A program made the position numbers and the translations under genes. A stretch of 64,000 bases of DNA, from positions 61,324,019 to 61,388,018 of the forward strand of contig CM049306.1 of the NCBI GenBank assembly GCA_026874595.1. Direction: 5' to 3'. The notes under the pieces were generated by a model that saw only the letters and a program-made list of their open reading frames with translations, was not told the origin of the DNA and ran no database searches. Below are positions 11,528 through 63,919 of this stretch, in pieces; within the stretch, counting starts at the first letter, position 1; each line of letters starts with the position of its first letter. This DNA comes from Sipunculus nudus. Lineage: Eukaryota > Annelida > Sipuncula > Golfingiida > Sipunculidae.

Positions 11528-11531
11528 ATGT
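11528..11531 (+). CDS. Gene 1 exon 1 (ATG plus one base)
   Basis: ATGT is followed directly by the strong donor GTAAGT. Only the initiator Met and the first base of codon 2 are coded here. The phase 1 donor joins the acceptor at 12005/12006 to give Met-Ser-Arg-Phe. Confidence 0.7.
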
Positions 11532-13919
11532 GTAAGTATTCTTCACATTTATCTTATTATTATTAATTATTATTTATTATTGATTTTTAAAGATATATAT
11601 ATATATACAGCATGGCCTGTTAAGAAAACATTCTGTGTCCTTTCTATTTGGTTTTGTCCGGCCACGCTAGACAATGCAAAAGAGCAAATTTCCTATCAAC
11701 AAGGTAATTTGTTTTGTGTTTAAGGCGGCATTCTAGCAAACAGGAATTTCAATTCATTCTGGTAATACCCCGAAGACTAATCCGTATTTCCTACAGACTT
11801 TTGCAGATTTCGTCCTGAACACAGGAACATTAGACTACCTTGACATTTATCAACAGTTTCAGCAGATTTCTCAGCAAAAACTTGCGAGTAGGAAAATTTG
11901 TCCATTTGTGCAACTTAGATGTGGGAAATTTTCATAATAAATCACACCAGCACACTTGACAATGACATTCTGCATGTCCATACTATTCTGTTTACTTTAT
12001 TACAGCCAGGTTTACTCTGGTTCTTCTCTCTGTCTGCTGTGGTCTCATCAATCTGTCAGCTGTCCATGGACAACGTGAAGACTGCCTCGGGCTTATCGAC
12101 GACATTGATTATGAAGTACAACAATACGTAAGTACTAATCACAATTCAGTAGTTGGGCTTTGTTTAAAGAATACAGCTGATTTTCACCAAAAAATTTTTG
12201 AAATTTCTATATCCGTTTACGAGAGTTAACACTATTTTTGCTAATAAAAAACTTTTCGTAATTTTAAAGATTTATTTATTGAGGACGCGTATATATTGTG
12301 CATCTATATTGAATGAGTATGTATAATATTTGAGCAGGTTGTGATAAGTTGCTTTTTCAGCTTTTTATTGATTAAATTAATTGAATTGACACACTATCCA
12401 AAAGAGTGGATATTAATTAATATTTGTATTTATTTAAATGAATATTTGAAATATAAGGTAAAATATTATCCTTTTCTTTTATCTGCAACATTAAAATAAT
12501 TATTTTTATAAACAAATGATGGAATATTACAGTGTACCATCCACCGGTCAGTTATCACTCTGGAGAATGCCTGCTCTGCTAATCTGACCAAATATCGAGC
12601 ACCTGCAGCAATACAAGAACAAATAATTTACCCCAACACAACAACATTAAAGGTTTGTATAAACCCTGGCAATGTAAAAGGCAGTGCAAAAGAACATGCT
12701 TTGATCTTGAAAATTAAAATTTAGGTAAACAGTTAGTAAACTACTCAGTCTTCTTTTGATTTAACTGAATTAATGAATGTCTGTCATAAATTCTAGCAAA
12801 GAATAGAGGATGACGTGTCCAATTATGATATATTTGTTATAATAATAAGGGGTCACGAAACGTATTATGCCAAAAAGTTATTTCAATAATAATAACTTTT
12901 TAACATGTTTTAAAGATTTCTTTTCACTTGCATAAGTAGAACTTATTAATATTGCGAGTTTGACAATAAAAGCAAAAAAAAAAAGCTCATATATCAAGTG
13001 ACAACTTGATGGCGCTGACAAACTACAGATGACTTGACGGGAATAGTACTTAAAACAATAAAACATAGATACATAAGAAATAGGATATGATGATCTATAA
13101 CTGATTGTATTAGGAATATTTTTCTGATTGTTCGGGTCGGTTGTTATTTCAGGAGGCATGGAGAGTCCTGAACAAACTGAAAACCTATAGTGTCACAGCG
13201 AGTCGTATGTGCTTCCGTCCAGGAAACAAAAGCAAAGATCCGGATATAAACTTCTGCACCACACACGAACTGATTGGTCACTATTTGAATAACATGCAGC
13301 AAATTCTGGTAACGAATGAATTTTTCTCCTAAAACGGTTGCATCATTTAACATTTGCTATTTTGTTATTAGCAGACTGAATTTTTTGGTATGTTAGAATA
13401 TCTGTCAGTCAAAATGTAACATGAGCTGTATATATGTCTCTGTGTTTACCATTTATTAATTTGTTTACTATCAATATAGAAATTTAAAACGTGGTATTTT
13501 TAAACGAAATATGAATTTAAAAATCAGTTTAAAAATTTAGCTAAACGTTTGTTTCTGTCTTTTACTCTGTTTTAATAATCCAAAAAGAACAGTTTTATTC
13601 AAAATAATGTATCGTTATTGACAAGTGCAAATTAAAAAAAATACCTTTAAACGTTTTTCCAAATTTTAATAAATTTCCGGATGAGATTTTAAGCAGATAC
13701 AAGACGTGATTATTACAGCTCTTTCTGACTGTCCTTCAGAACTGTAATTATTTTATTATTATATTTTCACAGTGCTTCAGGCAGGATTTCTATGAAGAAG
13801 AGTCCACAGAACAGCAACTCAGCACTTTTAACATAAGCACTGTATCCCAGCGCGCTACACATTATGTTGTAACCATGCGACAACTTTTAAAGGTCATTCA
13901 CTTAGCCCTAAAGAAGTAG
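11528..13919 (+). CDS. Gene 1: putative secreted helical cytokine, five exons, 182 aa
   Basis: The exons are 11528-11531, 12006-12127, 12533-12652, 13153-13308 and 13773-13919. Introns of 474, 405, 500 and 464 bp all start GT and end AG, with phases 1, 0, 0, 0. The product has a hydrophobic signal peptide (about residues 3-23, core TLVLLSVCCGLINL), then a mature chain of about 159 residues with six Cys (28, 43, 56, 102, 117, 135) and N-glycosylation sequons at 59, 77, 107 and 154. Amphipathic segments follow the exons: DCLGLIDDIDYEVQQY ends exon 2, EAWRVLNKLKTYSV starts exon 4, and RATHYVVTMRQLLKVIHLAL ends the protein. Length, exon count, phase pattern and terminal helix fit class I four-helix cytokines and hormones, which signal through JAK/STAT-coupled receptors in vertebrates. 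No sequence motif specific to one vertebrate family is visible, so cytokine identity is inferred. A TATA box, a kB-like site and an IRF-like site lie upstream, and an ATTAAA polyadenylation signal lies 65 bp after the stop. Confidence 0.8.
12006..12127 (+). CDS. Gene 1 exon 2 (signal peptide, helix A)
   Basis: The acceptor is TTTATTACAG and the donor TAC|GTAAGT. It encodes two bases plus 40 codons: the hydrophobic core of the signal peptide, a likely cleavage after VHG, then one Cys and an acidic helix ending VQQY at the exon edge. Confidence 0.85.
12533..12652 (+). CDS. Gene 1 exon 3
   Basis: The acceptor is AATATTACAG and the donor AAG|GTTTGT. It has 40 codons, phase 0 at both ends. It starts with Cys (CTIHRSVITLENACSANLTK), as exon 3 also does in genes 2 and 3. 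Sequons are NLT and NTT. Confidence 0.82.
13153..13308 (+). CDS. Gene 1 exon 4
   Basis: The acceptor is GTTATTTCAG and the donor CTG|GTAACG. It has 52 codons, phase 0 at both ends. It begins with the helix EAWRVLNKLKTYSVTASRMC, then a polar loop with sequon NKS and a second Cys, then a short helix ending NNMQQIL. Confidence 0.82.
13773..13919 (+). CDS. Gene 1 exon 5 (terminal helix)
   Basis: The acceptor is TATTTTCACAG and the stop TAG is at 13917-13919. It has 48 codons starting with Cys, an acidic linker, sequon NIS, then a long amphipathic helix through the C terminus (VSQRATHYVVTMRQLLKVIH), matching a helix D position. Confidence 0.82.
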   Translation, partial: CFRQDFYEEESTEQQLSTFNISTVSQRATHYVVTMRQLLKVIHLALKK

Positions 13920-13983
13920 AGTGCTTGGCAAAGAAAACGTTACAAAAAAGCAGCATTACGGTGTTATTGACGACTGATTTACA

Positions 13984-13989
13984 ATTAAA
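13984..13989 (+). terminator. Polyadenylation signal of gene 1
   Basis: ATTAAA, the common variant of AATAAA, lies 65 bp after the gene 1 stop and is followed by GT/T-rich sequence. Confidence 0.5.
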
Positions 13990-14189
13990 GTTTACTCAGG
14001 ATATTTTATTATATTTTGTAATATAGAGAAAATCGTTTTAAATATCAGCTCAGTTTAATTATCTATTTCTGTTTTTAACTATTAATTATACAATATAACA
14101 GCGAAATTAGAATCTATAGGATCTCTTCTGTTGTGATATTGTTGAACCTGAGGGAAATGTATGGTTTCATATGTCTGTTTTAATGCGAG

Positions 14190-14762
14190 TTGGTGGAAAC
14201 GACCTCTTGTTTACTTTTCTCTCTGACTTTTTATCGTGTCACTTTCATTCTTTCTTCATTGCGTTATTTTCTTACGTGTTCTCCTTTCTCTTTGGTTTGC
14301 TTTCTATCATTTTTGGCGCTCTTGTTTCCTCGTCGTCTTCTTGTGATATTCTCCTTGGCGTTCTTTCATTTTTTATCACTCCCTGTATTCCTCTCTCTCG
14401 CTGGTTACCCCTTCTTTTAGGCTCTTCTTTATTCCTTCCCGTTATTTCTCTCCCTCTCTCTGGTTTCCGTACTGTCTGGCTTTCTCCTTTCTCTACTGGA
14501 TTTCCTTAGATTCTTTCCCTCTGCCTTGCTGGTTTATCTCTGGCTTCTTCCTTTATCTTTTACTTCCCCTTTTCTGTCTTGATTTACTTTTTCTCTCAGA
14601 CTTCCCTGTTTTTCTCTGAATTCCTTGTTTTTCTGTGAATCTACCTTTTCCTCTTCTTCCGTCTGTCTGAGTGTTCATTGTATCTTCCTCCGTTCAGGCA
14701 TTTTTTTACTTTTCTTTTAACTTTCTCCCTTACTTTCTATGTTGGTTTCTTGTTTTTTTTAG
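14190..14762. repeat. Pyrimidine-rich, strand-asymmetric tract
   Basis: About 570 bp of strongly C/T-biased top strand made of degenerate TTCTCTCTGG/TTCCTTTCTC-like words. The long frames it opens (14171-14509) are Ser/Phe/Leu low-complexity artefacts and are not genes. It starts about 270 bp after the end of gene 1. Confidence 0.75.
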
Positions 14763-15637: not shown

Positions 15638-15678
<41 letters not shown>

Positions 15679-15792: not shown

Positions 15793-15823
<31 letters not shown>

Positions 15824-24000: not shown

Positions 24001-27000
24001 GGCATTCTAGTTGCCCATTTAGAGTGCTCTTTAGTGGCTTGTAAACAGTAAAGGGTTAAATGGCAAATTGTATGTAAAGGAGTATGGGCTGACATGCAGT
24101 GGCATGTGAAGTCTCCTTTATAAGTCACGAAAGAAAAGCTTTGCACTCATATGGGTCAAACTTATGCAACTCTTGATGTACGCGTGATCGATGATACATA
24201 TAGGGTACTCCAGATTTTGGCAAGGGGGTAGGGGGGGGGGGGACACCATGACGCGATCCAAGGTGGGTGAAATTTAAAAAAAAATTCCTTAATCTAAAAT
24301 TTTGTTGAATATATATTTGGAGGGGTGTGGGGGGGGGGGGGGGCAATTATCTATATACCGACCTTCCGATCATATGAACAAGAAACTACAATAGAACATT
24401 TCCTTTCCTCGATTTTGTTTTATAGGAGAGTGCTTTGGACTTCTGCGTACTGTTTTTTTTTTCTTCAAGCTGCTGGAGCCATATAGCCTTAAATCCAGCT
24501 ATTCACCTACCCTGTTTGAAAAAGTTCCAATAACGCCTCTCTGAACTTGTTTTTCTGATAGATTACGCAGCAATGTTGACAAACAGAAAAATCATGTAAC
24601 CTAAGGCGGCTGACTGCTTATATGGGGAAGTTGAGAGATCATTACTTGTAAAAACGCCCTTTGCAAAACTTTGGTTCGTCTGACTTGCCAAAGTTTGATC
24701 TTGTTGAATTTGTATGGATTGTTTTAGAAGGTCCCCACACGTTATTAACACGTGAATATAAACAAGCGAACAGTTGGATTAGCGTTTCCTACCAATTTTC
24801 ATGAAAGGGTAAATGATTTATCTTTTGTTGGCAGACGTCAGATTTCGGAATCCTTTAATTGTCTGTCGAATTATTTACCATAACGAATCCAATATATATT
24901 TTAGTATTTCATCATTTTTCAAACAACAGACAGAATTATGATGTGATTGGTTGTTTAAAGTGTGACGTCATAGGGCGTTTTTTGTAATATATTCACAAAT
25001 ATGCCTTGAGTAACACGTGAACCTCATTGGGGATACTCCCAACTGACTGTACTCATTACATATTAGACCGGTTTTCCCACCAGAAGATGGGATTGGCTTC
25101 ATTACATTTTGGGGTTATATCCTACAACTGCCTGTTACTTATTACGATACAATTGATCATGTCTAACCATGTCGAATATGTTCATATAAAGGGATGTATT
25201 AACAAATTCATTTTTTGGTGATTATTTTTTTTTTTTTTTTTTTGGGGGGGGGGGGCAACCTTAAATTATGAGCAAACTATATTAGCAACTAAGATAATCT
25301 ATAAAATATTGTACTTTGAGGTTATTCGACGTATGCAGGAACTGAATGATAGATTCAGGGCTTATCCTCGCCCTCAGCAGTTTAGAAAGTACTAAGTATT
25401 TTATTATGTAATTATGGTTTATTAAACACAAATATTACAAATATCGGGATAATTAATTTGCTCAAAATATTGTCGGGGACATAATATCTCTGCCCCCCCC
25501 CCCCCTTTCTCTGCCCCCTGCTTCCTACACCATTGATATATACCAGGCTTTGATTTTTTCAGTTTCAGCACCACAGCGACTTCATCTGATTTTATTGCTG
25601 ACGTTGAATATTTCACACACCGCCGCAAAGTATGATCCGTGCGAAAATCTGCCCTTACTGTACAAGAAGCTGTATAAACAAGCAAGGCGGGTCTTCAACA
25701 AGACGGTACGGTGTACTGGTATACATCTCACATACCGGTTAATACGTTTACTCTTGTAGTATTCTGTTGTATTATTCAGTGATTAATTTATGGCATATTT
25801 TTTCGTATTATATCAGTGAACTTTATGATAATAGCTGGGAAGTGTATGTTGTTATTCTGTTTTTATTTTCAATCACCTTTCTTTCTTTTTTAAATTAGGA
25901 AAGGAAATATTATATTATATATATATATACGGGTCGCATCCCGTGAAACAGTCTGTTGTGAATTAACAGTGTTGTTTTTCTTCAGAGTTATATATATATA
26001 TATATATATAGCACTTATGATGAATGCCATTACAGTGTCAAGATGTGTTTAACCTCCTTCCTGAACAAGTCACCCCTATCAGGAGGCTCGAGGCATGTGA
26101 GCAGTTCTCCAGGAATTATATCCAACATCATCGGCTCCCCATTCCAGTGGCGCCCTCTTACGAGAACTGCGAGGTGCGGTATAAATCTTTACGGAAACAT
26201 GTTAATATGAACAAGGTTATGCCGGACTATATTGGATTATGTTTATCATTACGGAAAGAAAATATAGGTTTTTAAATAAAGATACTAAGAAAACGATTAA
26301 AAAAGAAACGAAAACTCCCTGAAAGATCATATTGTAACATCAGATTTAATTTGAAGATTGGTATTAATTTGTTTTAAATCAGTTGTTCAGATATTCAAAC
26401 GAGTTGATGAATATTAAGGGAATCATATTAATATTAAAATTAAAATCATACAGATTATAATATTTTTGCTGACCTTAGTTTAAAGAGTGATGCAACAAAA
26501 TACAAATGTTCAGAATATTTTACGGTAATTTAATGCTCTTTTATCAATTTATATACTTCAGGTAGCCCTATCCGAGGTGAGCTGCAAATTCCAGGAATAC
26601 AGCCAAGTGTTCCGTCAGATGGTTGAGGGAGGGGACAGGTCTAAGCGTGATGGTTGCCCCAGCTGTCACCAAGGGTGCTGGTCTCCTTACAGCAAACTGT
26701 ACTGCGAGCTGAAAAACATTACGCTGTTCGACCTCAGACGCATTCTTCTTGTTGTAAGTGTACCTTATAATATAAGTATGAGTCCCTATATTTTATAGGG
26801 GCAAAATGTCACTACTGATTTTCCTCTAAGAGATTAATGTAGATATAGACACATGTAAACCAGAAGAGGACCAGACACAGTTTCTTTTATTTGTGTCGAT
26901 TCTGCAAAATAATGTATCATTCATAATGCTTATCCTGTGAAAGTATTACATACCGCTGCTATACTAATGCGACAGTTATATGATGATTAGAAGATGCTGT

Positions 27001-27352
27001 CTGGGTGGAACTAAGTCAGAATGCTTTATTTTATTAAATGTGTTTTTACCTATTATAGTTAGTGTCTGTTCTTTCACGAATATTTATTACATAAATCAAA
27101 TATCGTGAAGACTTATAAACATGTTTATTGTTACGTCATCTCGTTTCATGATTGAACCTACAGATGCCCATGTGCACGCAGATGCCAGAAACCGTGTGCA
27201 GCTTCAACGCCAGCCAGCCAGCCGACCACAGCCTGATGAACGAGTGTGAACGTCATCAACACGCCCTGGCCGCGGCCTGGTCCATGTTTGAACAAGCCAA
27301 ACTTACTAAAGAGACCATGATCAAGACTTGCTATACTTCACTGAACGGTTAA
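21057..27352 (+). CDS. Gene 2: putative secreted helical cytokine, Cys-rich, about 227 aa
   Basis: The exons are 21057-21078 (less certain), 25563-25705, 26036-26173, 26562-26753 and 27164-27352, with intron phases 1, 0, 0, 0. The introns are 4484, 330, 388 and 410 bp. The predicted chain has a signal peptide with core LHLILLLTLNI and likely cleavage after HTAA, then a helix LPLLYKKLYKQARRVFNKT at the end of exon 2, two middle exons, and a final exon with helix ECERHQHALAAAWSMFEQAK. There are 13 Cys in the mature chain. Five are in exon 4, three of them in the cluster CPSCHQGC. A furin-type site RSKR (about 127-130) precedes this cluster, so proteolytic maturation is possible. Sequons are at about 53, 153 and 180. 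It shares architecture with genes 1 and 3 but little sequence, as is usual for fast-evolving cytokines. The function is inferred. Exons 2-5 are firm. Exon 1 could instead be one of the alternatives at 23313 or 23748. Confidence 0.72.
21360..21625. repeat. Degenerate tandem duplication, 168-bp period
   Basis: GTTTGCGTTTCCTT followed by TTCTAG and a T run occurs at about 21369 and again at about 21537, with similar downstream T/G-rich sequence. It lies in gene 2 intron 1. Confidence 0.6.
22250..23780. other. Gene 2 intron 1, noncoding part
   Basis: AT-rich intronic sequence. It contains a GT-rich run at 22276-22310 and alternative exon 1 candidates at 23313-23319 and 23748-23754. Nothing else is recognised. 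Confidence 0.5.
23789..24060. mobile_element. piggyBac-type MITE in gene 2 intron 1
   Basis: Perfect 21-bp inverted ends lie at 23789-23809 and 24040-24060, containing TTAACCCTTTACTGTTTACA. TTAA target duplications at 23790-23793 and 24056-24059 abut CCC...GGG termini, the signature of piggyBac transposition. The 262-bp interior has no ORF, so it is a non-autonomous MITE. Confidence 0.85.
25563..25705 (+). CDS. Gene 2 exon 2 (signal peptide, helix A)
   Basis: The acceptor is TTGATTTTTTCAG and the donor ACG|GTACGG. It has two bases plus 47 codons. A second in-frame acceptor six bases downstream (TTTCAG|CA) would remove two residues. It encodes the hydrophobic core, the first Cys and a basic amphipathic helix. 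Confidence 0.8.
25926..26000. repeat. Dispersed repeat C flanked by (TA)n, copy 1
   Basis: GGGTCGCATCCCGTGAAA, then GTTGTTTTTCTTCAGAGTTA, bordered by TA runs on both sides. A near-identical copy with the same TA borders is at 37050-37115. Here it lies inside gene 2 intron 2. Confidence 0.75.
26036..26173 (+). CDS. Gene 2 exon 3
   Basis: The acceptor is GCCATTACAG and the donor GAG|GTGCGG. It has 46 codons, phase 0 at both ends, and starts with Cys. It encodes CQDVFNLLPEQVTPIRRLEA, then a Pro-rich loop (RLPIPVAPSY). It has three Cys. Confidence 0.78.
26562..26753 (+). CDS. Gene 2 exon 4
   Basis: The acceptor is TATATACTTCAG and the donor GTT|GTAAGT. It has 64 codons, phase 0 at both ends. 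It encodes the helix VALSEVSCKFQEYSQVFRQM, then the RSKR site, then the Cys cluster CPSCHQGCW, then sequon NIT and the helix LFDLRRILLV. Confidence 0.8.
27164..27352 (+). CDS. Gene 2 exon 5 (terminal helix)
   Basis: The acceptor is TTGAACCTACAG and the stop TAA is at 27350-27352. It has 62 codons with four Cys and sequon NAS. The long Ala-rich amphipathic helix RHQHALAAAWSMFEQAKL lies near the C terminus. GC content is clearly above the flanks. Confidence 0.82.
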   Translation: MPMCTQMPETVCSFNASQPADHSLMNECERHQHALAAAWSMFEQAKLTKETMIKTCYTSLNG

Positions 27353-32917: not shown

Positions 32918-33094
32918 TCAGTTAGCACCATTTATTCCCTGTAGCCTGTTGATGTAGCAGACAGTGTACACGCTTCTTTTGAATATTTCGGCCTGACGGG
33001 CAAGACGATACAGCATTTGCATGATTATAAAGATTTTTTCAGATCTACTCTTCCTCTGAAACTTCTTCGCAAGTTTTGATCTTCCTTTTTTGGT
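32918..33094 (-). CDS. Gene 3 exon 5 (terminal helix)
   Basis: The acceptor is GTTTCCTTTTTACAG and the stop TGA is at 32920-32918. It has 58 codons: a basic segment (KKGRSKLAKKFQRKSR), then the amphipathic helix EKIFIIMQMLYRLARQAEIF and a Cys-containing C-terminal helix. Confidence 0.82.
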   Translation of the reverse strand, partial: TKKGRSKLAKKFQRKSRSEKIFIIMQMLYRLARQAEIFKRSVYTVCYINRLQGINGAN

Positions 33095-36000
33095 CTGTAA
33101 AAAGGAAACACTACATTTAAGGAACAATTCTGTGATATACAAGGACAAACCCAATCACAAACTACCTAAACCTTTGTTAATGGAACGGAAAGTCTCACAA
33201 AATATATTTTCACAATCCCTCAACGTTCCTAGTTCCATAGAATTTGCAAAGAAATTAAGACTGTTGTTATAACTTTCTTGAACTTTTATACTATAAATGG
33301 TGGTGTATTAAATATGGCTAATTACATGGCAATTACTATGAATTAGAACGAGCACAGTGTTCGTAAAACAGTAAAATTGAATGTTATATAATAGTTAGCA
33401 ATCATTGTAATAACATGGCGCTTTCCTGATTGTCGTTTTCAAGCCAACTTTACTTTAAAAAATAATGAAACGCCTTAAGTTTCCTTTAAGAGAACTGCCG
33501 CCCTAGTGATGTAATCACGAGTCAAAAATATGTTTGTGAATAAATTGAAACCAAATTATTCTTAATATCTCAACGACATAGGGCAGGGCTTAAATATTAG
33601 ATCATTTGTATAGATAAATGTTGCCCAGCCTCATTTGACATATATTGTATTCCGATGACAAAATTATCGGGTTAGTTTTGAAAGTAACCGGAAAATTACA
33701 GCAAGGACTTAACAATGTTGCAAAGAAATCAGAACCACCTATCTCAGACCAGCTGAACTAAGGGTGCTTCCAAGGTGAACCCGGAAACCATGCAAGCGTT
33801 GCCTATGGTAATTGCTCATTCACTACACTTTAACCTTTTGAAATCAGTTCGGCCAAGTCAAAACAATATGCTTGTCAGGTGTTGCACGGCGTGATCGAGG
33901 TCAAATATCCTTAATTAACTCTCTGATTAAACCGGGTGATCGGCATAATGTTGCGCATTTTCTCATATGTTTATTAAATTATAGCAGTTACTAAATTTCT
34001 AGTAAATTTACGGGTAAGTCAAACAGCCTCTCAACCACGGGGCTGTGTTTACATATGTGTAAGGAGCAAGTTTACACTATGTATATTTGTTCGTTTTCCA
34101 TTTGTTTACTCCCGCCAAATTCACCTACCGCCAAATACAACTCGATATTCGCCATCTGTTCGGTGTGGGTTTCTTGACTGTGCTCACCAGGCTACCAAAA
34201 TCATTTTCGTATAAATATGGTTAAAAAGCATTAAATGTGTCCTCAGTGGACCTTTACTGCGAGCATGCGCACTAACCGTAATTATTGTCTGCTGTGTCTA
34301 GTAAAATGAGCTGACATTGCCAATTTGGCAAGTGATGCTAAATACAACGCTGTTGAAGTTGGATTTTTTAATGTTATCAATTGTGATAATACAAAACAAG
34401 TCTTTCTTTTGTTGATGTAGCTGAACAAAATTACTGGAAATCACCGATAGATGTCGCTAGAGAAATAAGAAAGAAAAAAACTCTTTACCAAAATATGCAG
34501 CCTGAACAATTCACCACTATCACCTACCATTAACTCCTGTAGCCCTTGCGTTTTGAGAGATGAATGGTATGATTTGAGTTTCAATATTTACCTTGCGATG
34601 ACCAAGAAGCAGATTTTTCGTCACGCGTTGAATACGATGAGCGTCCGGAATTACTGTCACGTTCCCCCTGTTCTTGGTGGCGTTAATTATCACATTTAGG
34701 TAAAGATGGAAGTTCATGAGATCATTCATTACACACATGGGAGCCTTGATGTAAAAAAATAGAAAAATATTAAAACTTATTGTCTCACAAAAAATGGTAT
34801 GCCGGTTTGGAAAATGATACAAAACTCTATTTTTAATCTGCAGATAAGACTATAATGATGGTTGATATAAACAATACTTAAGATGATACAAAATCAATAA
34901 ATGCCGGAAATTTTATTCTTCAGGAGGACGTAATTCTGATTTCTGACTTTGAAAAATTAAAATATTTTCTTCAGATAATAAAATAAGGTGGATAAATTAG
35001 TTAGTTGTTTTCCAGGGCGATAATATCATATGTCTGATTGCTTATTAGGTTGTTGGTTTGTCTGCTAGCAGGAGCACGTAAAAACAATTAGACCAGTTTA
35101 CCCAATTTCCAGGAAGCTTTATTGAGTCAGGGAAGATTTATTTACATTTTGCTTCTGATCCAGAGAAAACTTGAAGGGGGGGGGGGGGGGGGCGGGGGGG
35201 GTGTCCGGTAGTATTGTTAAGCTGGCGGTGGTATGCGCATCTGAACATCCATATAGTTTCTCATGATTCTGACCCCAGCGACATTAAGTTCAACGTTACC
35301 CTCCACTTTACTAGCTTAAACCAGTTTAACTTCTTCCAGTGATCGATTGCATACATCTGTTACGTTTTAAATCAGCGGCATCTACAAGGCCTTAATAACA
35401 GGAACAGGCACTTTTTCTTTATTCAAGGGTATTTAAAAAATGATAATGAACAGTCACTGTAACAGAAATTCCTTCCTCCTTTTATGGCTATGAAATGACG
35501 AAAATCAATAAAACTTATCAATAAGATATAACGTTAACTTTGAGAAAAAAATATGAATTTTCAAAATCTCTCTTGGAAAGATAAATAGTTTTTTTTATAC
35601 TATTGTGAAAATCTCTGAAGTAATAATACTACAGTATTAGGTAAAATCACTATTGTATTCATCTTTCCGAAACCTAAACTGGTCTGTACAAAATTAAAGA
35701 CGATACTTTGTATGATATTAAACTACTTATTACCCATGTCGTGTTGGCTGTAACGTCTGGTAACTTGAATTCTAGCCTATGACTTTTATTTAAATTGTCG
35801 CACTTTTCAAGACGTGACGCATTAGTAGACGAACTCGGAGGAAGATCCTGGTGGTGTGAATTACACTGCAAAAAATATTTATCATTATATCAGTGTTGAT
35901 TACTGATCAAGTCATGAGCTCAGGTGTTAGATCTATTTGGTAATTACTCATCGTGATGGGATCTTATTGCAATCCTCAAAATGTTATATTTGTGTTTATA

Positions 36001-36948
36001 TATATATAAATGGCCAGCACTGAAATGATAATAAGTGAAACATTTGAAACTCATTTGGGTTGTGAGGTATAATCGGTCTTCATATCAGTCATGATTATCA
36101 AGTGAACGTAATTAAGCGTGAGCATATGCCGTTAATAAGAAATCCCGTGATTTCCCTTTGATATTATCATATAACAATAAGTAGTAACTTACGAAGGATC
36201 TGTACGCCTCCTTTGATAGGTTGTGGAGTTCCCTTGCTTTAGCATAACGGTTACACGGATTGGGACATGCGTCCGTTACGACGAGGATAAGGGCCAAGAG
36301 AAAAACAACTTGGAACAAGAAAATAGAAAAACATTATATTATTCATAATGCACCCTGTAGTAAATATTAAACAAAATTTAATCAAGATTTAAACTAAGCC
36401 AAATTCATGGCAGTACCATACTTTTCCTAAGTTCTTAAGTCTGACTTTGGATACAAAAATAAACAAACAAGGTTATCGTGAATCTATATATATTTCAGAG
36501 ATTATTCTGAAAGGTTTCTATTGAAAAGCGGTGCCCTACAGTTAGAGTTGTGCCGCATATCCTGATATAATATTTCTCCAAAAATCTGCACACACACTAA
36601 AAAAGGGCACCCAGACATTTGAAAACACGTAAAAATATCCAACAATGTTGCTCTTTTTGGCTTTTAAATTTGAACACTATATTTTTCCTTAAAACATAAA
36701 TACTGCAAGTAAATATATCCATTAGAAAGAAAGGTAGGAATCTGTCGAGTAAAATTTTCATAAAATATATAGTATATACCCATCGTCTTGGTTCCCAGAG
36801 GTCAAACAGATAATAAGCATGATATATATAGACAAACATGCTAGTCATGACTAGTCTGATGTATAGTGTTAAACTCAGTTTATATGTTCCTTATGCATTG
36901 GCGGCGAACCCAGATTTTCATAGGGGGGGGGGGGGCAATAGTAGACCA

Positions 36949-37230: not shown

Positions 37231-38119
37231 AAGGGTCGTACCCTCACCCAAATGGCAGGGGGCAGTAAGCAGATTTTAGGGGGAAATCCCCAAAGGGGGA
37301 GGGTGTGGAACATTTTGAAAAACTGTATGTATACTGCAGTCTCCATGCAACATGTTGCATTCTGGTTTATGTTTGCTGTCATTTATTGTTCAATGCTTAC
37401 TAAGTACAACAGAACCTCTTTGAAAAGAGATTGTTATTTGCAATGGATGCATTTTAAGACAGAATATCAACTTTGCAATATCTTTTTTTTTGCACGTCAA
37501 ACCTCAGGCTGCGGCACTGTATATATGGTACTCCAAGTACTGCGGGCGAGAAGCGCCAGAGCGGAGGTAGATAAATATATGTGAGAGTGCTAAAACTCTA
37601 TAATAAAATAGTGGATGTTTTTATACCCGTCATTTTGTTTGGGGGGGGGGGGGGGGGCAGCCTCCTATACCCTTATAATCTCATAATATTACAATAATGT
37701 AGAAGTTACACCTGTAATGTTTGTCTTTACATGTTTCTTATAATTAAACATATTTCCAGTTTTCCATGTATCGACGTAAATACTTCTTTGGGTCCTGATG
37801 TTGTTTATGTATGTTACATATGTTATTAATGTACAGAGAATATTTATATTAGCCGAAGAGGTTACTTTGTAATCTTGTTTACAAACATAATTAAATATGA
37901 TAAAATTAAAATATGAATTAACAGATAATCACAATCTTTCACAGAAAATGACATATGTCATAGTGTGTTATAATATTCATTAAGAATTGGATTTTTGTAT
38001 GTTTCTAGCTGTATTTGTTTGAAACCTTGAGATGCATATATGAGATAAATCTCAGACTGGAGAAAACAAGCAGGTACTTGGTAATGAGCATATCTGTTTT
38101 GATCCTTACCTTTCAGCAT
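32918..38119 (-). CDS. Gene 3: putative LIF/CNTF-like secreted helical cytokine, 195 aa
   Basis: On the minus strand the exons are 38119-38110, 36308-36193, 35865-35734, 34744-34592 and 33094-32918. The introns (1801, 327, 989 and 1497 bp) have phases 1, 0, 0, 0 and donors GTAAGG, GTAAGT, GTAATA and GTAAAT. The signal peptide is about residues 1-17 (MLKVVFLLALILVVTDA). The mature chain of about 178 residues has six Cys (18, 22, 43, 64, 90, 183) and sequons at 33, 57, 68, 83, 107 and 114. Helix A, NRYAKARELHNLSKEAYRSF, ends exactly at the exon 2 border and resembles gene 4 (VKAKELRSITNTLYDEY). This helix-then-aromatic ending at an exon edge recalls helix A of the LIF/CNTF/cardiotrophin group, a family-level comparison from knowledge and not an alignment. 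Exon 5 opens with a strongly basic run containing RKSR (R-x-x-R), then two helical segments. A TATATAAG box lies 71 bp upstream. Receptor and function are unknown. Confidence 0.8.
34592..34744 (-). CDS. Gene 3 exon 4
   Basis: The acceptor is a T-rich tract then ACATCAAG, and the donor AAG|GTAAAT. It has 51 codons, phase 0 at both ends. The helix APMCVMNDLMNFHLYLNVII is followed by sequons NAT and NVT and a second helix AHRIQRVTKNLLLGHRK. Confidence 0.8.
35734..35865 (-). CDS. Gene 3 exon 3
   Basis: The acceptor is ATTTTTTGCAG and the donor TGG|GTAATA. It has 44 codons, phase 0 at both ends, and starts with Cys. It is polar and rich in Ser, Asn and Pro (CNSHHQDLPPSSSTNASRLE), with sequons NAS, NKS and NTT. 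This looks like a glycosylated A-B loop. Confidence 0.8.
36193..36308 (-). CDS. Gene 3 exon 2 (signal peptide, helix A)
   Basis: The acceptor is TTTTCTTGTTCCAAG (AAG rather than CAG) and the donor TTC|GTAAGT. It has two bases plus 38 codons with CPNPC at the mature N terminus, then the helix ending AYRSF. Confidence 0.82.
36895..36937 (+). repeat. GCG-NANCCAG-ATTTT lead-in with poly-G tract
   Basis: GGCGGCGAACCCAGATTTTC, ATA, then about 13 G and CAATAG. The same lead-in and poly-G-CA design occurs at 14941-14982 and, less well, at 24205-24245. It is a dispersed short repeat with G-quadruplex potential. Confidence 0.6.
36951..37025. repeat. (TA)n microsatellite
   Basis: About 37 TA dinucleotides, directly following a poly-G tract and leading into dispersed repeat C. 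It lies in gene 3 intron 1. Confidence 0.95.
37050..37115. repeat. Dispersed repeat C flanked by (TA)n, copy 2
   Basis: GGGTCGCATCCCGTGAAA, a TAGTCAGTAGTGAATT variant, and GTTGTTTTTCTTCAGAGTTA, matching copy 1 at 25926-26000. Confidence 0.75.
37177..37230. repeat. (TA)n microsatellite
   Basis: TA run with single interruptions, following repeat C copy 2. Confidence 0.93.
38110..38119 (-). CDS. Gene 3 exon 1
   Basis: ATGCTGAAAG is followed by donor GTAAGG. It encodes MLK plus one base; the phase 1 join gives MLKVVFLLALIL. Confidence 0.72.
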
Positions 38120-46028: not shown

Positions 46029-46033
46029 GTTTC

Positions 46034-46048: not shown

Positions 46049-46215
46049 AGTCCAGATTACCGGATAGTCCAGATTACCGGATTGTCCAGATAACCTGATT
46101 GTCCAGATTTACCAGATTGTCCAGATTACTGGATGTGTCCAGATTTGCAGATGTTCAGATTAAAGGATGTACAGATTAGTGGATGTCCAGATAACCAGAT
46201 GTCAGGATTGCCATA
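46049..46215 (+). repeat. Short tandem repeats in the retrotransposon leader
   Basis: About ten degenerate units of 15-18 bp (AGTCCAGATTACCGGAT and variants) directly follow the primer-binding site. Confidence 0.85.
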
Positions 46216-47999: not shown

Positions 48000-49055
48000 A
48001 TGGCTGACTTGGAGAGTCTAAGGAAAAAAGTTGAGGACCTACAACAGAAAGTAGATGAGGAGGGTGCCTCATCCACGCGTGTTATACAGACTCATCAAAG
48101 GTTACGTAGTTTCGATGGCACCTCGGGTGATGTAAATGAGTGGATTCTGGAAGTTGAGAGGGCACTTCGAATACAAGGCTTTAGAGGTAAGACTGCTGTC
48201 GACTTTATTGAAAGTCATTTAGAAGACCCTGCCCGATAGGAAGTGAGGTATGCAGATGAGTCTGATCGTAAAGATCCTAAGCAAGTCTTAAAGATTCTTC
48301 GCGATGCCTTTGGGGAAAAGTTGTCTACCACCCAACTTTTGACAGTATTCCATGCGAGGCACCAGCGAGAGGGAGAATCGCTGCGGGACTTCAGTCACGC
48401 CTTGATGGGACTTTTATCACGAGTCCAACGGGAGGACAGCTCCGCTGTCGCTGACCCTGATAAATTACTTAAGAACTGCTTTGCGGAAAAGGTTAAAGAT
48501 AAATATTTGCGACGTGATCTCAAGAAACTGGTGGAGGATAGGCCAGCCTTGACTTTCAAGGAAGTACGGAATTCGGCTATTCGCTGGACTGAGGAGACTC
48601 CTGGCTATCCAAATGATCATAATACAACATGGTTAGATGAGGATGCAGTGTATACCATTGGTGGTGCTGCAGCTCGCCACTCTCCATGTAGAGGAGGTAC
48701 AGTGACCACTCCTGTTAATACAGAGACTGAGCTGTCAACTTTACGTAAGACTGTCGAGTTACTAGGACAGCAAGTCCAGTCACTAGTTACGCTTCAAGAT
48801 CGGCAGCAGGAACAGATTAAGGCTCAGCAAGAACAAATCAACCAGCAACAGAAGATGATCACAACCTTATTTGATAACTTTTCTCGTCCAAGTACCCCTG
48901 TGCCTAGAACAGAGAATGGCAGAGGCCGTGGTGGATATTACCGAGGTGGACACAGATTTCGACGTGGTGGATATGATTCGCAACCTAATAGGAGAAACGA
49001 GCCCTCTAGTAGTGCAACAAACCAGACAGAACAGGCCCCTGTTTCCCTTAGCAAT
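48000..49055 (+). pseudogene. gag: gag, interrupted by an in-frame stop
   Basis: Starts at ATG 48000 with a coiled-coil-like opening (MADLESLRKKVEDLQQKVDE). A TAG at 48237-48239 interrupts the frame after 79 codons, and the same frame continues at once. The middle is a typical helical Gypsy capsid region, followed by a Gln-rich coiled coil (48750-48860) and an Arg/Gly-rich tract (about 48915-48985, RGRGGYYRGGHRFRRGGYD). No CCHC zinc knuckle is seen, so RNA binding may rest on the RG tract. gag runs into pol without a frame change. The break makes full-length Gag depend on readthrough. Confidence 0.85.
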
Positions 49056-50675: not shown

Positions 50676-52224
50676 TTGGCCACGTCCAGACAGCTTAAAA
50701 GCCCTTCGTCAGTTTCTAGGGTTTAGCTCGTTCTACCGGCGGTTCTTAACAGGATTTGCAGCCAAGGTCAAACCATTGAATGACCTTGTTGCTGTTTTAA
50801 TTGCCAAACAGAAGGTCAAGCGGCAGAAAGTGCACATCAGAGAGTGGAGTATTGAGTGCGAGAGGGCATTCCAAGAGGTGAAGCAAGCAATAGTTTCTGC
50901 ACCGGTATTGGCATTTGCTGATTTTTCCTTACCCTTCATTGTTGAGACTGATGCGTCCTTTTCAGGATTAGCTGCTGTATTGAGCCAGGTTCAAGACGGT
51001 AAAAAGAGAGCAGTAGCATATGCTAGTCGCGGACTCCGCCAGCATGAGAGGAATATGAACCGTTACAGTTCGAAAAAGTTAGAACTGCTAGCCCTCAAGT
51101 GGGCAATCACAGAAAAATTTCGAGAATACCTACAATACTCATCTTTCACTGTACTGACGGATAACAATCCTCTTACCAATCTATTGAAGCAGAACAAGCT
51201 AAATGCTGTGGAGCAGCGTTGGGTTAACGATCTCGCAGGTTTTGATTTTGAAATCATCTACCGCCCAGGCAAAAGGAGTGGAAATGTGGATGCACTGTCT
51301 CGTCAGACAGACAGGCCTTGGGACCAGAATTGCGATAGACTAGTTAATGTAGGAGCATGGCCTGAAATCCATGCCATGGAAGCATTATGTGAGGATAACT
51401 TTGAACAGATCTCACATGAGCAAGAGGAAAATCAGGATTGCTCTGTGATGGCACAAACCACACTGATACCAGGTGACTTGCAGTTAGCTATGTGTAGAGA
51501 GGAGATGTCAAACTCTCATCACCTGGAGATGCAGGCTACTGAGGTGAATGTATTGCCCTGTCTCTCAACTGAGAAACTGATGGATTTACAGAGGAAGGAT
51601 CCTGTTATAGGCATTTTCTTGAAGAGCTGGGACAAAGATTGTAAACCACCTTATGTCGAACTAAGAAGGTTAGCATTGGAAGTACAGCTTCTCTTTCGCC
51701 AATGGCATCGACTTGAGACACATGATGGAGTATTATATAGATGTGTGGAGGACCCTAAACTTGGAAAGCTGAGGCAACTAGTATTGCCAGCTGAACTTAG
51801 ACCAGAAGTGCTAGAAGGACTCCATGATAAGAATGGCCACCAGGGTCTTGAGCGGACCACCCAGTTAATTCGAACAAGATGTTATTGGCCCAAAATGTCT
51901 TTTCATATAGCACAATGGTTGGCACAGTGTAAACGTTGTGCTTTGGCTAACCCCGAGCGAGTCAAAACACCTTTGGGTACGATAGTGGCAAGAGAACCTT
52001 TGGACATTATAGCCATAGATTTCACAGTACTAGAGCCAGCTTCAGATGGCCGGGAAAATGTTCTTGTGATAACCGATGTTTTCTCGAAGTGGACGGTGGC
52101 AATACCAACACGAGACCAAAAGGCAACGACCATGGCACGCGTCCTAAGCCGAGAATGGTTTGCACGTTATGGAGTACCTAAACGTATTCATAGTGACAAA
52201 GGTAGATCTTTTGAAGGACTTTGA
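50620..52224 (+). pseudogene. pol: pol part 2: RNase H and truncated integrase
   Basis: Continues the polymerase after the frameshift. The thumb/connection (FLGFSSFYRRF) is followed by RNase H with VETDAS (about 50944-50961), an ELLALKWA motif and LTDNNPL (about 51154-51174). The integrase zinc-binding HHCC segment is at about 51823-51945 (H-x-H, then C-x2-C). The core has its first Asp in IAIDF (about 52009-52023) and its second in IHSDKG (about 52186-52203). The frame then stops at 52224, so the catalytic Glu and C-terminal domain are missing. Only about 200 bp separate this from the 3' LTR, so the end of integrase was deleted. The element cannot supply its own integrase. Confidence 0.92.
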
Positions 52225-52410
52225 TCGTTGAGATACGACAATGAGTGTCAGTGTATAAGTCGTGTTTCGCATTCAAGTAATTTGTTTGTAATATGTCGCC
52301 AAATCGTAGTTTTGTCTTCTCTCTGGATCCTGGTTCTTTCTAGTGAATCCAGCGATCTCATGAGGAAATTATTTTGTCGATTTCTGTCCAGAGGACCGGA
52401 CAGTGATATG

Positions 52411-52421
52411 AGAGGGGTGTG
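52411..52421 (+). other. Polypurine tract
   Basis: AGAGGGGTGTG sits directly before the 3' LTR, the expected place for plus-strand DNA priming. Confidence 0.65.
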
Positions 52422-53744
52422 TGTGACCGTCTCGCTGGATTCGGACAAACCCCCGTATATTTGGTTATTTTTGTACTGTGCTGCCACCTTGTTTAGGAGC
52501 CGGTTGTCAGTCGCCAGTCTACTAATTCTGCCAACCAGCGCCATCTGCTGGGGAGTTTCTGTGAAATGACCCTTTTTTGTGAACGCTCAGCTCGTTGAGA
52601 CGTCTCCTGCTGTTTTGCCGCTCTAGAACAAAGGTTTTACGCCGACTTGCGGTAAGAATGACTTTTTCCAGGCGATCTTCGTATTGCAAGCTATTTCCAG
52701 TCATTGTTTTGATATGTCCAATTTGTTGAATGACGGTGTGTCAGCTGGCACCCAGATTCATGATGTTCACAAGTTTGGAACTGCGTAGTTAAACCGCCAT
52801 TTTGTGATTGGATTGCAGGCTGCAGAATGTTGCACTTGACGATAGTCGTGCCTCGCCTTAATGACGTCCAGTGGTCCCACCCTTAGAAACCTGCTAACCG
52901 CGGTTCGTAATATTTGATACAATTCTAATCTTTCATGGTGTATGTATGGGGTATGATGAGACGTGACGTCATCAGATATGCTTAAAGGTATATTTCAGCT
53001 AGGTCTTGTAGTGTAATTAGAACATTTGGTAGATTTATGTCATGATGACCTAGATACTCCTTAATTAGTGATACTCTTAAATGGTCTGGTCATATGTAAT
53101 ATATGGTCTATGAAACATAACCTGGTGTACTATATGGTATCATTCCAACAACTCAGTATTGTTTAATACAGATGTGTAAGTATTTAAGACTGTTTTAAGT
53201 GTACTTAGTATTGTCTATTAATGTATTTTGTTTAGGTGGACTAATTTGGGATTAGTTCTCATTGTCACTCTTATGTCAAGGTTACATGGGTGTATTTGTT
53301 TCGCACATTGTGGATGGATAGTAATAGTTGAATCTCTATGAGCATTATTGTGAGATAACATATATATATCACATATATTGCAGTATAACCCCATTACCTT
53401 GCCACCCATTCTGTTTGTTTTAAGCTCAACATCTGTACAGTCTAACCCAGTTGTTTGACCTGCTTTGTTTATTAGTAGTTATCTTGCCCCAATGAAGTTT
53501 TCCTGTACAGTAACAGAGTTATATGAAGATAACAATAGGATATATCTTGAATTATATGGAATCTGAGGTCACACTACTTTGCTTAAGGATACTACAGTGA
53601 CTCGGTAAATGTTTTATTTCTTTATTATCATATGTTTATCAGGGTTTCCTGTGCTGTCCTGAGTTTTATGTAACCAATACGACAGAATAAATCTTTGTCA
53701 ACCTTTGCTGGTTGTCTGTCTCAGTCCATGGGGATTCGGCCACA
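52422..53744 (+). repeat. 3' LTR
   Basis: 1323 bp, nearly identical to the 5' LTR (about seven substitutions, one indel). It ends CGGCCACA and is followed by TATATC. Confidence 0.95.
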
Positions 53745-59004: not shown

Positions 59005-59890
59005 ATGCAAATCTTCCTCCAGGACATTCTCCTCCTCACCCTCCTCAGCACCTCCTGCATGTCAATCTTCCTCCAGCACTTTGTCCTCCTCAACCTCCTC
59101 AGCACCTCCTGCATGTCAATCTTCCTCCAGCACATTCTCCTCTCCACACCATTCTAAGCACCTTCTGCATGTCAATCTTCCTCCAGAACTTTGTCCTTTT
59201 CACCCTCCTCAGCACCTCCTTTATGTCAATCTTCCTCCAGCAGATTCTCCTCCTCACACTCCTCAGCACCTCCTGCATGTCAATCTTCCTCAAGCACAAT
59301 GTCCTCCTCACACCATTCTAAGCACCTTCTGCATGTCAATCTTCCTCCAGCACTTTGTCCTTTTCACCCTCCTCAGCACCTCCTGCATGTCAATCTTCCT
59401 CCGGCACATTCTCCTCCTAACCCTCCTCTGCACCTCCTGCATGTCAATCTTCCTCCAGCACATTCTCCTCCTCACACCATTCTAAGCACCTTCTGCATGT
59501 CAATCTTCCTCCAGCACTTTGTCCTTTTCACCCTCCTCAGCACCTCCTGCATGTCAATCTTCCTCCGGCACATTCTCCTCCTCATCCTCCTCAGCACCTC
59601 CTGCATGTCAATCTTCCTCCGGCACATTCTCCTCCTCATCCTCCTCAGCACCTCCTGCATGTCAATCTTCCTCCAGCACATTCTCCTCCTAACCCTCCTC
59701 TGCACCTCCTGCATGTCAATCTTCCTCCAGCACATTCTCCTCCTCACACCATTCTAAGCACCTTCTGCATGTCAATCTTCCTCCAGCACTTTGTCCTTTT
59801 CACCCTCCTCAGCACCTCCTGCATGTCAATTCTTTTCCGGAACTTTCTGCTCCTTTCACTCTCTTCAGCACCACCTGCATGTCAATCTTC
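59005..59890. repeat. VNTR, 54-bp unit, about 16 copies, with higher-order pattern
   Basis: Units carry CTCCTGCATGTCAATCTTCC, then TCCAGCACATTCTCCTCCTC and ACCCTCCTCAGCAC. Because 54 is a multiple of three, long frames stay open on both strands (up to 188 codons). These are artefacts: no start context, no unique sequence and no splice signals. Variant units (ACCATTCTAAGCACCTTC with TTTGTCCTTTTCACC) recur at about 59150, 59310, 59480 and 59750, so there is a higher-order repeat. Confidence 0.93.
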
Positions 59891-60780
59891 CATATTACTA
59901 CTGCAATACATGCCTATAGCCTCATCTCAACTTATGATAAAAAGGCGCAGTTAATATACATTATAATTAGTTTATAATATCATAAGACACAGATGGATAT
60001 CTTGACATTAGTTATCTTTATTAAACCTAAGGGAGTATAAAGATTCAAGCGCCTGTTTTGTAATGTAGCCCTTAGTCATGCATAATAACTGTATCGTAAG
60101 TGCTTCTTGCTTACGACATAGGATACGATACGATTTCGCAATTTCCTATCATAACGTCTTATCGTAAATACACAAGATGTGTATCGCATTTTCCCGTACA
60201 TTATACGAATTTCGTTTAAAAGTGGATGGGATAATTACACTAAATACTGATCAGCAACATGGCTGCCCATGAATAAGTAGGTTCTATATATCGCAGTAAA
60301 TTGGCTTTATGCGCTTGGCAGCCGTATTTTTAGAAGGCGACAAAGAAGATTCACCGGACGGGAGACTAGGACATTCTGGGTAGGGCTCGGCTCATGAGGC
60401 GGATTTACGATTGCCAGAACTTTACGAAACGAAGAAATACGATACGATACGAAGAAAGATCTTATGACTTCGTATCGTATTTCAACATGCACGTTCCGAT
60501 TGGCTGCCAATAACCCAGGATTTCGTGTCGTATCCTGCTTCGTATCAGATCGCATCCAGATTTCTTAACGTGTATTAGATATCGTAACCATTTCTTATGG
60601 ATTAGTAGTAATTCGTGGCATTTACTTCGTGCATTGTACCGGTTAATATCCCACTCAGCGCTGCGATTTTCTCCGAAGTACGACATACCACGAGTTATAT
60701 ATAACCTACGATATTTGACAATTCATAGCAGCGGAAAAAAAAAACAGTTTTGAATCGACTCAGAATCGCACGAAACTGAT
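59891..60780. repeat. Region of CGATACGAT/ATCGTATCG inverted repeats
   Basis: ATACGATACGAAG and CTTCGTATCGTAT-like words occur repeatedly in both orientations (for example about 60430-60450 against 60467-60482, and near 60125). This suggests foldback or MITE-like DNA. No gene. Confidence 0.45.
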
Positions 60781-61740: not shown

Positions 61741-61749
61741 GCATACTCT

Positions 61750-63090: not shown

Positions 63091-63094
63091 AAAC

Positions 63095-63102
63095 TATTTA
63101 AG
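63095..63102 (+). promoter_or_regulatory. TATA-like box of gene 4
   Basis: TATTTAAG lies 83 bp upstream of the first ATG (63178), the same spacing as in genes 1-3. Confidence 0.45.
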
Positions 63103-63177
63103 AGGGGCATAATTTGGCTATTGCAGCATTTTATCAACAGATTCTGCATAAGCCTACTGATGCATAAACGCAGATAT

Positions 63178-63187
63178 ATGATGAAAG
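63178..63187 (+). CDS. Gene 4 exon 1
   Basis: Two Met codons, Lys, then one base, ending AAAG| like exon 1 of genes 2 and 3. Confidence 0.5.
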
Positions 63188-63919
63188 GTAGGATAATCAA
63201 ACTTTAAATACAGGCGCAAAAAATAGCATTAATACTGCTATATAGTCATACAGTCTTAATAAACAGCCTGTTGCCATGCTGCAGGGAGAAAGAGGAGGAA
63301 AAATAAAGATAAGTTAAATCATGAAACACCGTCTAATATTACAAATGATTTAACATAGGTAAATGAACACACAATCGTATAATGTACACTTTAACTGTTC
63401 ACATGTAATACTGCAAACTTCCAATGATGAATTATCTCTATGTAGTTTATATGACAAAGTATGCTCCGTGTGCGTGATGGTCGACAAGTATAATTTTCTC
63501 TTAATGTGATTGTAACCACGAACACAATATGATAGTGGTGCATACTTGTATTATTAAACAGTTATTTAGATAAGCCTACCATGAATAATAATCACCATGT
63601 ATACTTTTCATGAAAATATATGGAGAATAATTTAAAAGCAGCAGCATATTTCAGTCATTTTTAACAATTAAAAAAAAATACAGCCACTAGATGGCGCTGG
63701 TTATTAATCTAGGTTTAACGTAGATGTTCGATGGCTTTATAAAATACGCTTTATTTTATAAATGAAAAATATCGAATACTTCTTTCAGAGAATGTGTTCA
63801 TCCTCACTGCCTTGGTGGTGGCGTATTCAGTTCTTGTCAGAGCAAAGCCAGACTTAGGAAAAAGCGTAGTGAAAGCGAAGGAGCTACGGAGTATAACGAA
63901 TACACTATACGATGAATAT
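63178..63919 (+). CDS. Gene 4 (5' part): putative secreted helical cytokine
   Basis: Exon 1 is 63178-63187 (ATGATGAAAG|GTAGGA; MMK plus one base) and exon 2 is 63789-63919 (acceptor TTCTTTCAG, donor TAT|GTGAGT), separated by a 601-bp phase 1 intron. Exon 2 ends in phase 0. Together they encode 47 residues: the signal peptide MMKENVFILTALVVAYSVL with likely cleavage after VRA, then KPDLGKSVVKAKELRSITNT and LYDEY at the exon border. KAKEL...Y matches the KAREL...Y helix of gene 3 in the same place, so these two are the closest pair in the family. There is no Cys in this part. Remaining exons lie beyond the window. The exon 1 donor is weaker than usual. Confidence 0.62.
63789..63919 (+). CDS. 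Gene 4 exon 2 (signal peptide, helix A)
   Basis: Two bases plus 43 codons with strong acceptor and donor. It encodes the hydrophobic core NVFILTALVVAYSVLV and a basic-then-polar helix. Confidence 0.75.

Follow-up and report, generated by a model that had tools for sequence, protein, structure and literature searches.

Gene models and predicted products

The window, by which we mean the whole 64,000-nucleotide stretch of DNA analysed, holds genes 1, 2 and 3 and the first two exons of gene 4, which continues past its edge; all four genes lie inside 55 kb. Their exons are listed below, with those of gene 4 outside the window given in window numbering.

11528..11531, plus strand: gene 1 exon 1 (ATG T), phase-1 donor
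12006..12127, plus strand: gene 1 exon 2, leader core and start of predicted helix A
12533..12652, plus strand: gene 1 exon 3, first residue Cys
13153..13308, plus strand: gene 1 exon 4
13773..13919, plus strand: gene 1 exon 5 and stop; predicted C-terminal amphipathic helix
21057..21078, plus strand: gene 2 exon 1, phase-1 donor
25563..25705, plus strand: gene 2 exon 2, leader core and predicted helix A
26036..26173, plus strand: gene 2 exon 3, first residue Cys
26562..26753, plus strand: gene 2 exon 4
27164..27352, plus strand: gene 2 exon 5 and stop
38110..38119, minus strand: gene 3 exon 1 (ATGCTGAAAG), phase-1 donor
36193..36308, minus strand: gene 3 exon 2, leader core and predicted helix A, border end RELHNLSKEAYRSF
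35734..35865, minus strand: gene 3 exon 3, first residue Cys
34592..34744, minus strand: gene 3 exon 4
32918..33094, minus strand: gene 3 exon 5 and stop, single long predicted helix
63178..63187, plus strand: gene 4 exon 1 (ATGATGAAAG), phase-1 donor, chosen by eye
63789..63919, plus strand: gene 4 exon 2
64282-64389, plus strand: gene 4 exon 3, outside the window, first residue Cys
64713-64883, plus strand: gene 4 exon 4, outside the window
65594-65743, plus strand: gene 4 exon 5, outside the window

Genes 1 (plus strand), 2 (plus strand) and 3 (minus strand) each comprise five coding exons separated by introns of phases 1-0-0-0, all of which are GT-AG, and encode products of 182, 227 and 195 amino acids, respectively; the models proposed for them in the initial annotation hold. 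Gene 4 (plus strand) had been modelled only in part, and its predicted exons 3-5 were found beyond the window in the same phases, which gives five exons in the 1-0-0-0 plan and a product of 189 amino acids. In all four genes the start codon lies in exon 1 and the hydrophobic core of the leader in exon 2, as was proposed for a signal peptide split near its start, and an N-terminal leader is thus predicted for all four proteins from hydropathy and reading. Further, the cysteine said to open exon 3 is present in genes 1-3 (3/3) and also in gene 4. Both helices described in the same annotation, one at the border of exon 2 and the other terminal and amphipathic, stand as predictions. Folding was applied to single exons only, one reliably and one not: exon 5 of gene 3 gave a mean pLDDT of 89, with helices at residues 7-13 and 17-57 of 58, and exon 4 of gene 2 gave an unreliable mean pLDDT of 51.5, with helices at 3-22, 26-29, 42-51 and 55-62. 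Helical periodicity of the proteins (z 1.8-4.4) was within the range of five of the seven vertebrate cytokines tested, or higher.

Two further candidates for exon 2 were discarded. The orphan exon 2 that had been placed at 31485 is not supported: a 19-bp tandem repeat (31436-31499) runs into its leader, and the one acceptor visible on reading would give it phase 2 where the plan needs phase 1. The other candidate, at +112.8 kb, is without a proper leader on reading.

When the full-length proteins were compared with each other, genes 3 and 4 (z 7.2) and genes 2 and 3 (z 4.5) were similar to a degree that none of 1000 shuffles equalled in either case; gene 1 displayed no significant likeness to the other three at full length. 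Judged by this similarity, genes 2-4 are paralogues, and the membership of gene 1 in the group rests mainly on the exon plan.

Exon plan and promoters in control sequence

Five coding exons with phases 1-0-0-0 are the common plan of long-chain class I cytokine genes; no printed statement of this plan was found in the literature searched. The frequency of the plan in local sequence was determined with a finder for exons 2-5, which demanded a leader, the 1-0-0-0 phases, lengths within limits and a cysteine at exon 3, the limits being tuned so that genes 1-4 pass. The finder returned four models in 264 kb, each at the locus of one of genes 1-4, and none in the same 264 kb reversed; over 304 kb it returned the same four loci and no others. 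Its exons were identical throughout to those listed above for gene 3 only, and differed in exon 5 of gene 1, in exons 2 and 5 of gene 2 (later acceptors) and in exon 4 of gene 4 (later acceptor). With the cysteine demand lifted, genes 1 and 2 received another exon 3 as well, and 1-0-0-0 came first among 81 phase plans over 304 kb with four models, the next plan having three and the other 80 plans together 35.

TATA boxes lie 71-80 bases upstream of the start codon in three of the four genes: TATATAAG begins 80 bases upstream of the ATG in gene 1 and 71 bases upstream in gene 3, and TATAAATA begins 78 bases upstream in gene 2. No TATA[AT]A occurs within 150 bases upstream of exon 1 in gene 4. 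Of 11,366 ATGs taken as background, 732 (6.4%) have TATA[AT]A between positions -90 and -60, compared with three of four here. Immune promoter motifs were scattered.

Comparison with vertebrate cytokines

We compared the 17 residues anchored at the exon 2/3 border with those of growth hormone (GH1) and prolactin (PRL), using shuffles and 19 registers; the GH1 letters used here and below are presumed to be correct. As in GH and PRL, the predicted helix A of gene 3 ends at the exon 2 border, where gene 3 carries a block resembling L-H-x-L-x4-Y-x-x-F. Gene 3 scored 35 against GH1 (p 5e-5) and 33 against PRL (0 of 20,000 shuffles), and gene 4 gave p 4e-4 against each; for all four of these pairs, zero shift was the best of the 19 registers. 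The values for gene 2 were p 0.007 (PRL) and p 0.03 (GH1), and gene 1 gave nothing (p 0.17-0.76). Among 223,705 stop-free local 17-mers, the border block of gene 3 ranked first for GH1 and second for PRL, and that of gene 4 was absent from the best 12 for either.

At full length, gene 4 reached z 4.0 with G-CSF (2 of 5000 shuffles) and z 3.3 with IL-6 (15 of 5000 shuffles), and gene 3 reached just z 1.6-3.6 with the GH/PRL family across three gap settings. With the first gap setting, z exceeded 2 in 9 of 36 long-chain pairs, compared with 2 of 72 reversed and 2 of 36 other pairs; the corresponding counts were 9, 3 and 2 with the second setting and 7, 0 and 1 with the third. Controls reached z 2.3 (cytochrome b562 with gene 3), and the short-chain cytokine IL-4 reached z 2.4 with gene 4. 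The exon 2/3 borders fell in one column in two of the five printed alignments (gene 4 with G-CSF and gene 3 with GH1) and not in those of gene 4 with IL-6, gene 3 with G-CSF and gene 2 with G-CSF. When exon orders were compared with the vertebrate genes, the true order ranked third of 24 for all genes and first of 24 for genes 2-4, and z exceeded 2 in 11 of 80 same-exon pairs compared with 12 of 240 mismatched ones; we regard this test as weak evidence. Taken together, the alignments suggest that the cluster is modestly related in sequence to the long-chain class I cytokines of vertebrates. The IL-6/G-CSF family (PF00489) has the same exon plan, and exon 3 of G-CSF, like that of gene 4, starts with Cys and measures 108 nt.

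Database searches returned no cytokine. The PF00489 profile was silent in the genome, a negative that is weak because all 14 controls were empty too, and Pfam hmmscan of the four proteins gave no cytokine match. PDB sequences yielded no cytokine either to the proteins queried singly (E up to 10) or to a profile of the aligned cluster proteins. Relatives of the proteins of genes 1-3 were absent among 5.8 billion proteins. We judge the failed Pfam, PDB and protein-database searches for relatives uninformative, because human IL-6 as a query goes beyond IL-6 itself and its viral counterpart to no more than G-CSF (E 1.6) and a designed protein (E 1.9), and prolactin stays among its own close kin. 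Profile-profile comparison gave no signal for the cluster and none for the two known pairs tried, and plasmid and RNA family searches gave no match.

Interpretation of the cluster

The initial annotation proposed a lophotrochozoan helical cytokine family that might supply ligands for JAK/STAT signalling. The exon plan, seen in 4/4 genes, and the modest vertebrate kinship speak for such a family; the fold, the ligand role and the lophotrochozoan host are presumptive. Overall, we put at about 60% the probability that the cluster consists of four complete genes for predicted secreted, long-chain class I-type helical cytokines, which would be candidate JAK/STAT ligands and might serve invertebrate cytokine receptors that lack a known partner. 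In such proteins, exon 2 would end helix A, exon 3 would form a cysteine-bridged A-B loop, exon 4 would supply helices B and C and exon 5 helix D, and the four helices would pack as an up-up-down-down bundle. Once secreted, the protein may pair two receptor chains of class I type, either gp130/Domeless/IL6R-like or CRLF3, and this pairing would turn on JAK and STAT in cells of the blood or elsewhere. The cluster presumably expanded through duplication, its proteins diverging fast, as cytokines do.

Partners for such ligands were sought in the genome, where STAT_alpha was found (E 2.9e-13). The IL6R-type receptor domain (PF09240) gave one match, at E 1 and under the cut-off; this match, on C16, was read on both strands and is not credible as a receptor. 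According to a 2026 survey (PMC13203501), IL6R, JAK and STAT co-occur in Mollusca and IL6 is confined to vertebrates, and a shrimp lectin and insect Upd are the invertebrate ligands named there. Unpaired of Drosophila and the IL-like C-type lectin of shrimp, both Domeless ligands, would share with the cluster the proposed role of invertebrate JAK/STAT ligand (PMC13203501). The amphioxus GH-like molecule is likewise a class I-type ligand outside vertebrates (PMC9010856), but it is from a chordate.

It is unlikely, in our estimation, that the genes are a lineage-specific, fast-evolving family of secreted helical proteins (immune effectors, reproductive proteins or others) whose cytokine-like exon plan arose by chance. 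Secreted proteins quite often have a leader split by a phase-1 intron, with phase-0 introns after it, cytokine profiles found no match and the exon-order test is not decisive, all of which such a family would accommodate. It would leave to coincidence the border block common with GH and PRL, the z of 4 between gene 4 and G-CSF and the sizes of exons 3-5, which are near those of GH, IL-6, EPO and G-CSF (exon 2 is shorter).

Assignment to the class II helical cytokines, of IL-10/interferon type, is very improbable. Human IFN-lambda 2/3 resemble the cluster in their tiny exon 1 and in having first a phase-1 intron and then introns of phase 0, but an extra exon added to five conserved ones brings them to six, compared with five here (PMC2654155); and the global z of IFNA2 and IL-10 with the four proteins ranges from -1.1 to 1.7.

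Membership in the growth hormone/prolactin family proper has a marginally poorer standing. Its genes have the five coding exons and 1-0-0-0 phases of the cluster, and the border blocks of genes 3 and 4 resemble those of GH1 and PRL. The GH cysteine framework runs from exon 3 to helix D, with a C-terminal loop in addition. Exon organization, a conserved cysteine framework and receptor binding define the family (PMC9956162); genes 1-4 have its exon organization, and the listed Cys positions of their four proteins lack the GH framework. Further, the matches of prolactin as a query are confined to prolactin itself, placental lactogen and growth hormone, the last at E 1.5e-15, whereas the cluster proteins reach neither hormone in PDB at E up to 10, and the scores of gene 4 are higher against G-CSF and IL-6. 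Finally, it is scarcely credible that the exon chains arose from open frames by chance and are no genes, for although single frames are short and some splice sites score low, the predicted exons of gene 4 were found, the reversed sequence gave no model, TATA boxes are placed alike in three genes and genes 2, 3 and 4 are similar.

Returning to the long-chain class I-type reading, we hold only tentatively, at somewhat short of even odds, that these proteins are true protostome homologues of the GH/PRL/IL-6/G-CSF stock and ligands of gp130/IL6R-like or CRLF3 receptors. No such gene family was found in print in the open-access literature searched. If they are true homologues, class I signalling would have had its ligands, with their five-exon gene, before the protostome-deuterostome split. 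The cluster offers candidate ligands with exact gene models that can be tested at the bench, and, as cytokine genes, they would give this class of helical proteins a far older origin in animal evolution.

Four genes with a shared exon plan

Gene models were built by reading the window, which belongs to a genome of 1.43 Gb in 153 contigs, and by joining exons with a script, giving the following four genes.

Gene 1: five coding exons of 4/122/120/156/147 nt, intron phases 1-0-0-0, 182 amino acids
Gene 2: five coding exons of 22/143/138/192/189 nt, intron phases 1-0-0-0, 227 amino acids
Gene 3: minus strand, five coding exons of 10/116/132/153/177 nt, intron phases 1-0-0-0, 195 amino acids
Gene 4: five coding exons of 10/131/108/171/150 nt, intron phases 1-0-0-0, 189 amino acids, completed beyond the right edge of the window, exon 1 chosen by eye

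Genes 1-3 are complete and lie where the initial annotation had placed them, each with five coding exons and phases 1-0-0-0. Gene 4 had been assigned to the group from its first two exons; exons 3-5 were found past the window edge with the same phases and an exon 3 that starts with Cys, as in genes 1-3 (4/4 genes), and this is a prediction borne out, because the initial annotation had only the first two exons.

A plan finder for exons 2-5, which required a leader within exon 2, intron phases of 1-0-0-0, bounded exon lengths, and Cys opening exon 3, had its limits chosen with genes 1-4 in view. In 264 kb it picked out the loci of genes 1-4 and nothing else (four models), the reversed 264 kb gave none, and 304 kb gave the same four. 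Finder and hand-built exons agreed throughout for gene 3 only, the finder taking another exon 5 in gene 1 and acceptors further downstream for gene 2 exons 2 and 5 and gene 4 exon 4. When Cys was not demanded, the finder also gave genes 1 and 2 another exon 3, and 1-0-0-0 was the richest of 81 phase plans (four models; three for the runner-up and 35 for the other 80 together). Further, TATA[AT]A occurs 60-90 bases 5' of the start codon in three of the four genes, gene 4 being the one without it, compared with 732 of 11,366 ATGs; because the TATA box played no part in model building, this supports the tiny first exons. Overall, we conclude that the four genes are very probably real.

The mature proteins of genes 3 and 4 aligned with z 7.2 (0/1000 shuffles), those of genes 2 and 3 with z 4.5 (0/1000), and those of genes 2 and 4 with z 2.6 (16/1000); judged from their sequences, genes 2-4 are paralogues. 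Gene 1 reached z 1.5 at most against the other three as full-length mature proteins, and z 3.0 (exon 4) and 3.4 (exon 5) when matching exons were compared with gene 4. Gene 1 is linked to genes 2-4 by plan, place, Cys, and the likeness of exons 4 and 5. Used as queries against the genome, genes 2, 3, and 4 each recovered only their own four longer exons and chance matches; since this search did not connect the three genes with one another, distant paralogues elsewhere are possible.

Regarding the surrounding DNA, a recent LTR retrotransposon lies between genes 3 and 4 (44705-53744; LTR pair with 99.4% identity across 1324 bases), with long, gag-pol-like frames at 48240-50675 and 50608-52224 (domains read by eye). 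Tandem arrays occupy 2134-4150 (large; 43-bp unit, ~47 copies), 31919-32498 (41-bp unit, ~14 copies, a little past gene 3 on its 3' side), and 59010-59891 (54-bp unit, ~16 copies; several frames open; not counted as a gene). The lone exon 2 initially claimed near 31485 was dropped. An open frame at 31490-31612 ends in NTDASNGRDECSVDTLRYMWRIDNL, followed by a GTACGT donor; its end is similar to exon 5 of gene 4 (SLRMMWRLRHL, E 2.6), and the frame is possibly a relic.

Comparison with vertebrate class I cytokines

The coding exons of human GH1 measure 10/161/120/165/198 nt, those of IL-6 19/191/114/147/168, those of EPO 13/146/87/180/156, and those of G-CSF 40/164/108/147/156. Compared with these sizes, exons 3-5 of genes 1-4 are of similar length, whereas exon 2 is shorter.

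Two comparisons, one of full length and one anchored at an exon border, yielded a signal. In full-length global alignments, gene 4 gave z 4.0 with G-CSF (2/5000 shuffles) and z 3.3 with IL-6 (15/5000). The alignment with G-CSF, made blind to exons, brought the 2/3 borders into exact register and left offsets of 5 columns at the 3/4 border and ~25 at the 4/5 border; 2/3 borders shared a column in two of the five alignments printed (gene 4-G-CSF and gene 3-GH1). At the first gap setting, z exceeded 2 in 9/36 pairs with long-chain cytokines, 2/72 with reversed partners, and 2/36 with other proteins, the corresponding counts at two further settings being 9, 3, 2 and 7, 0, 1. For scale, the same method gave z 3.7 for CNTF-LIF, 6.7 for IL-6-G-CSF, and -0.9 for GH1-IL-6, and an unrelated control, cytochrome b562, reached 2.3 with gene 3. 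By contrast, exon-by-exon comparison was weak and counts against this signal, the true order ranking third of 24 for all genes and first for genes 2-4.

We also compared the 17 residues that close exon 2 with the corresponding residues of five human cytokines, anchoring each pair at the exon 2/3 border (20 anchored comparisons); the block had been spotted by eye beforehand. For gene 3, the score was 35 against GH1 (p 5e-5) and 33 against prolactin (0/20,000 shuffles), and for gene 4 it was 22 and 19, respectively (p 4e-4 each); in these four comparisons, zero shift was the best of 19 registers. Gene 2 gave p 0.03 (GH1) and 0.007 (prolactin), gene 1 gave no signal, and the best p against IL-6, G-CSF, and EPO was 0.02. 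Among 223,705 stop-free regional 17-mers in six frames, the gene 3 block was the top match to GH1 and the second-best match to prolactin, and that of gene 4 fell outside the best 12 for either.

Two exons were folded singly. Exon 5 of gene 3 is predicted to form a helix over residues 17-57 of 58 (mean pLDDT 89); the helices of gene 2 exon 4 (3-22, 26-29, 42-51, and 55-62) are unreliable at a mean pLDDT of 51.5. Helical hydrophobic periodicity gave z 1.8-4.4 for the four proteins, 2.0-2.9 for GH1, PRL, IL-6, G-CSF, and EPO, -0.02 for CNTF, and 1.2 for LIF.

Genes 1-3 had no relative in any database searched, including a large protein database, gene 4 had none in Pfam or among PDB sequences, a profile search found none, and profile-profile comparison was empty. 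The empty database searches say little, because human IL-6 as a query reaches, beyond IL-6 and viral IL-6, G-CSF only at E 1.6.

Receptor side and interpretation

The genome holds a STAT gene (two STAT_alpha matches on contig G000 C12:15272209-15272991, E 2.9e-13 and 1.3e-5). The sole genome match to an IL6R-type domain, at E 1, proved not credible on reading. In the literature, IL6R, JAK, and STAT are described as co-occurring in Mollusca and IL6 as confined to vertebrates (PMC13203501), CRLF3 is called an orphan receptor (PMC8063046), and the GH/IGF system is said to have been long considered vertebrate-specific until a GH-like molecule was reported in amphioxus (PMC9010856).

We do not claim membership of GH/PRL, because genes 1-4 differ from that family in lacking the cysteine framework named as defining in PMC9956162. 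The best available reading is that the four genes encode class I cytokines, which we consider somewhat probable (roughly 0.6). A protein of this plan, secreted and with four helices, would probably join class I-type receptor chains and activate JAK and STAT.
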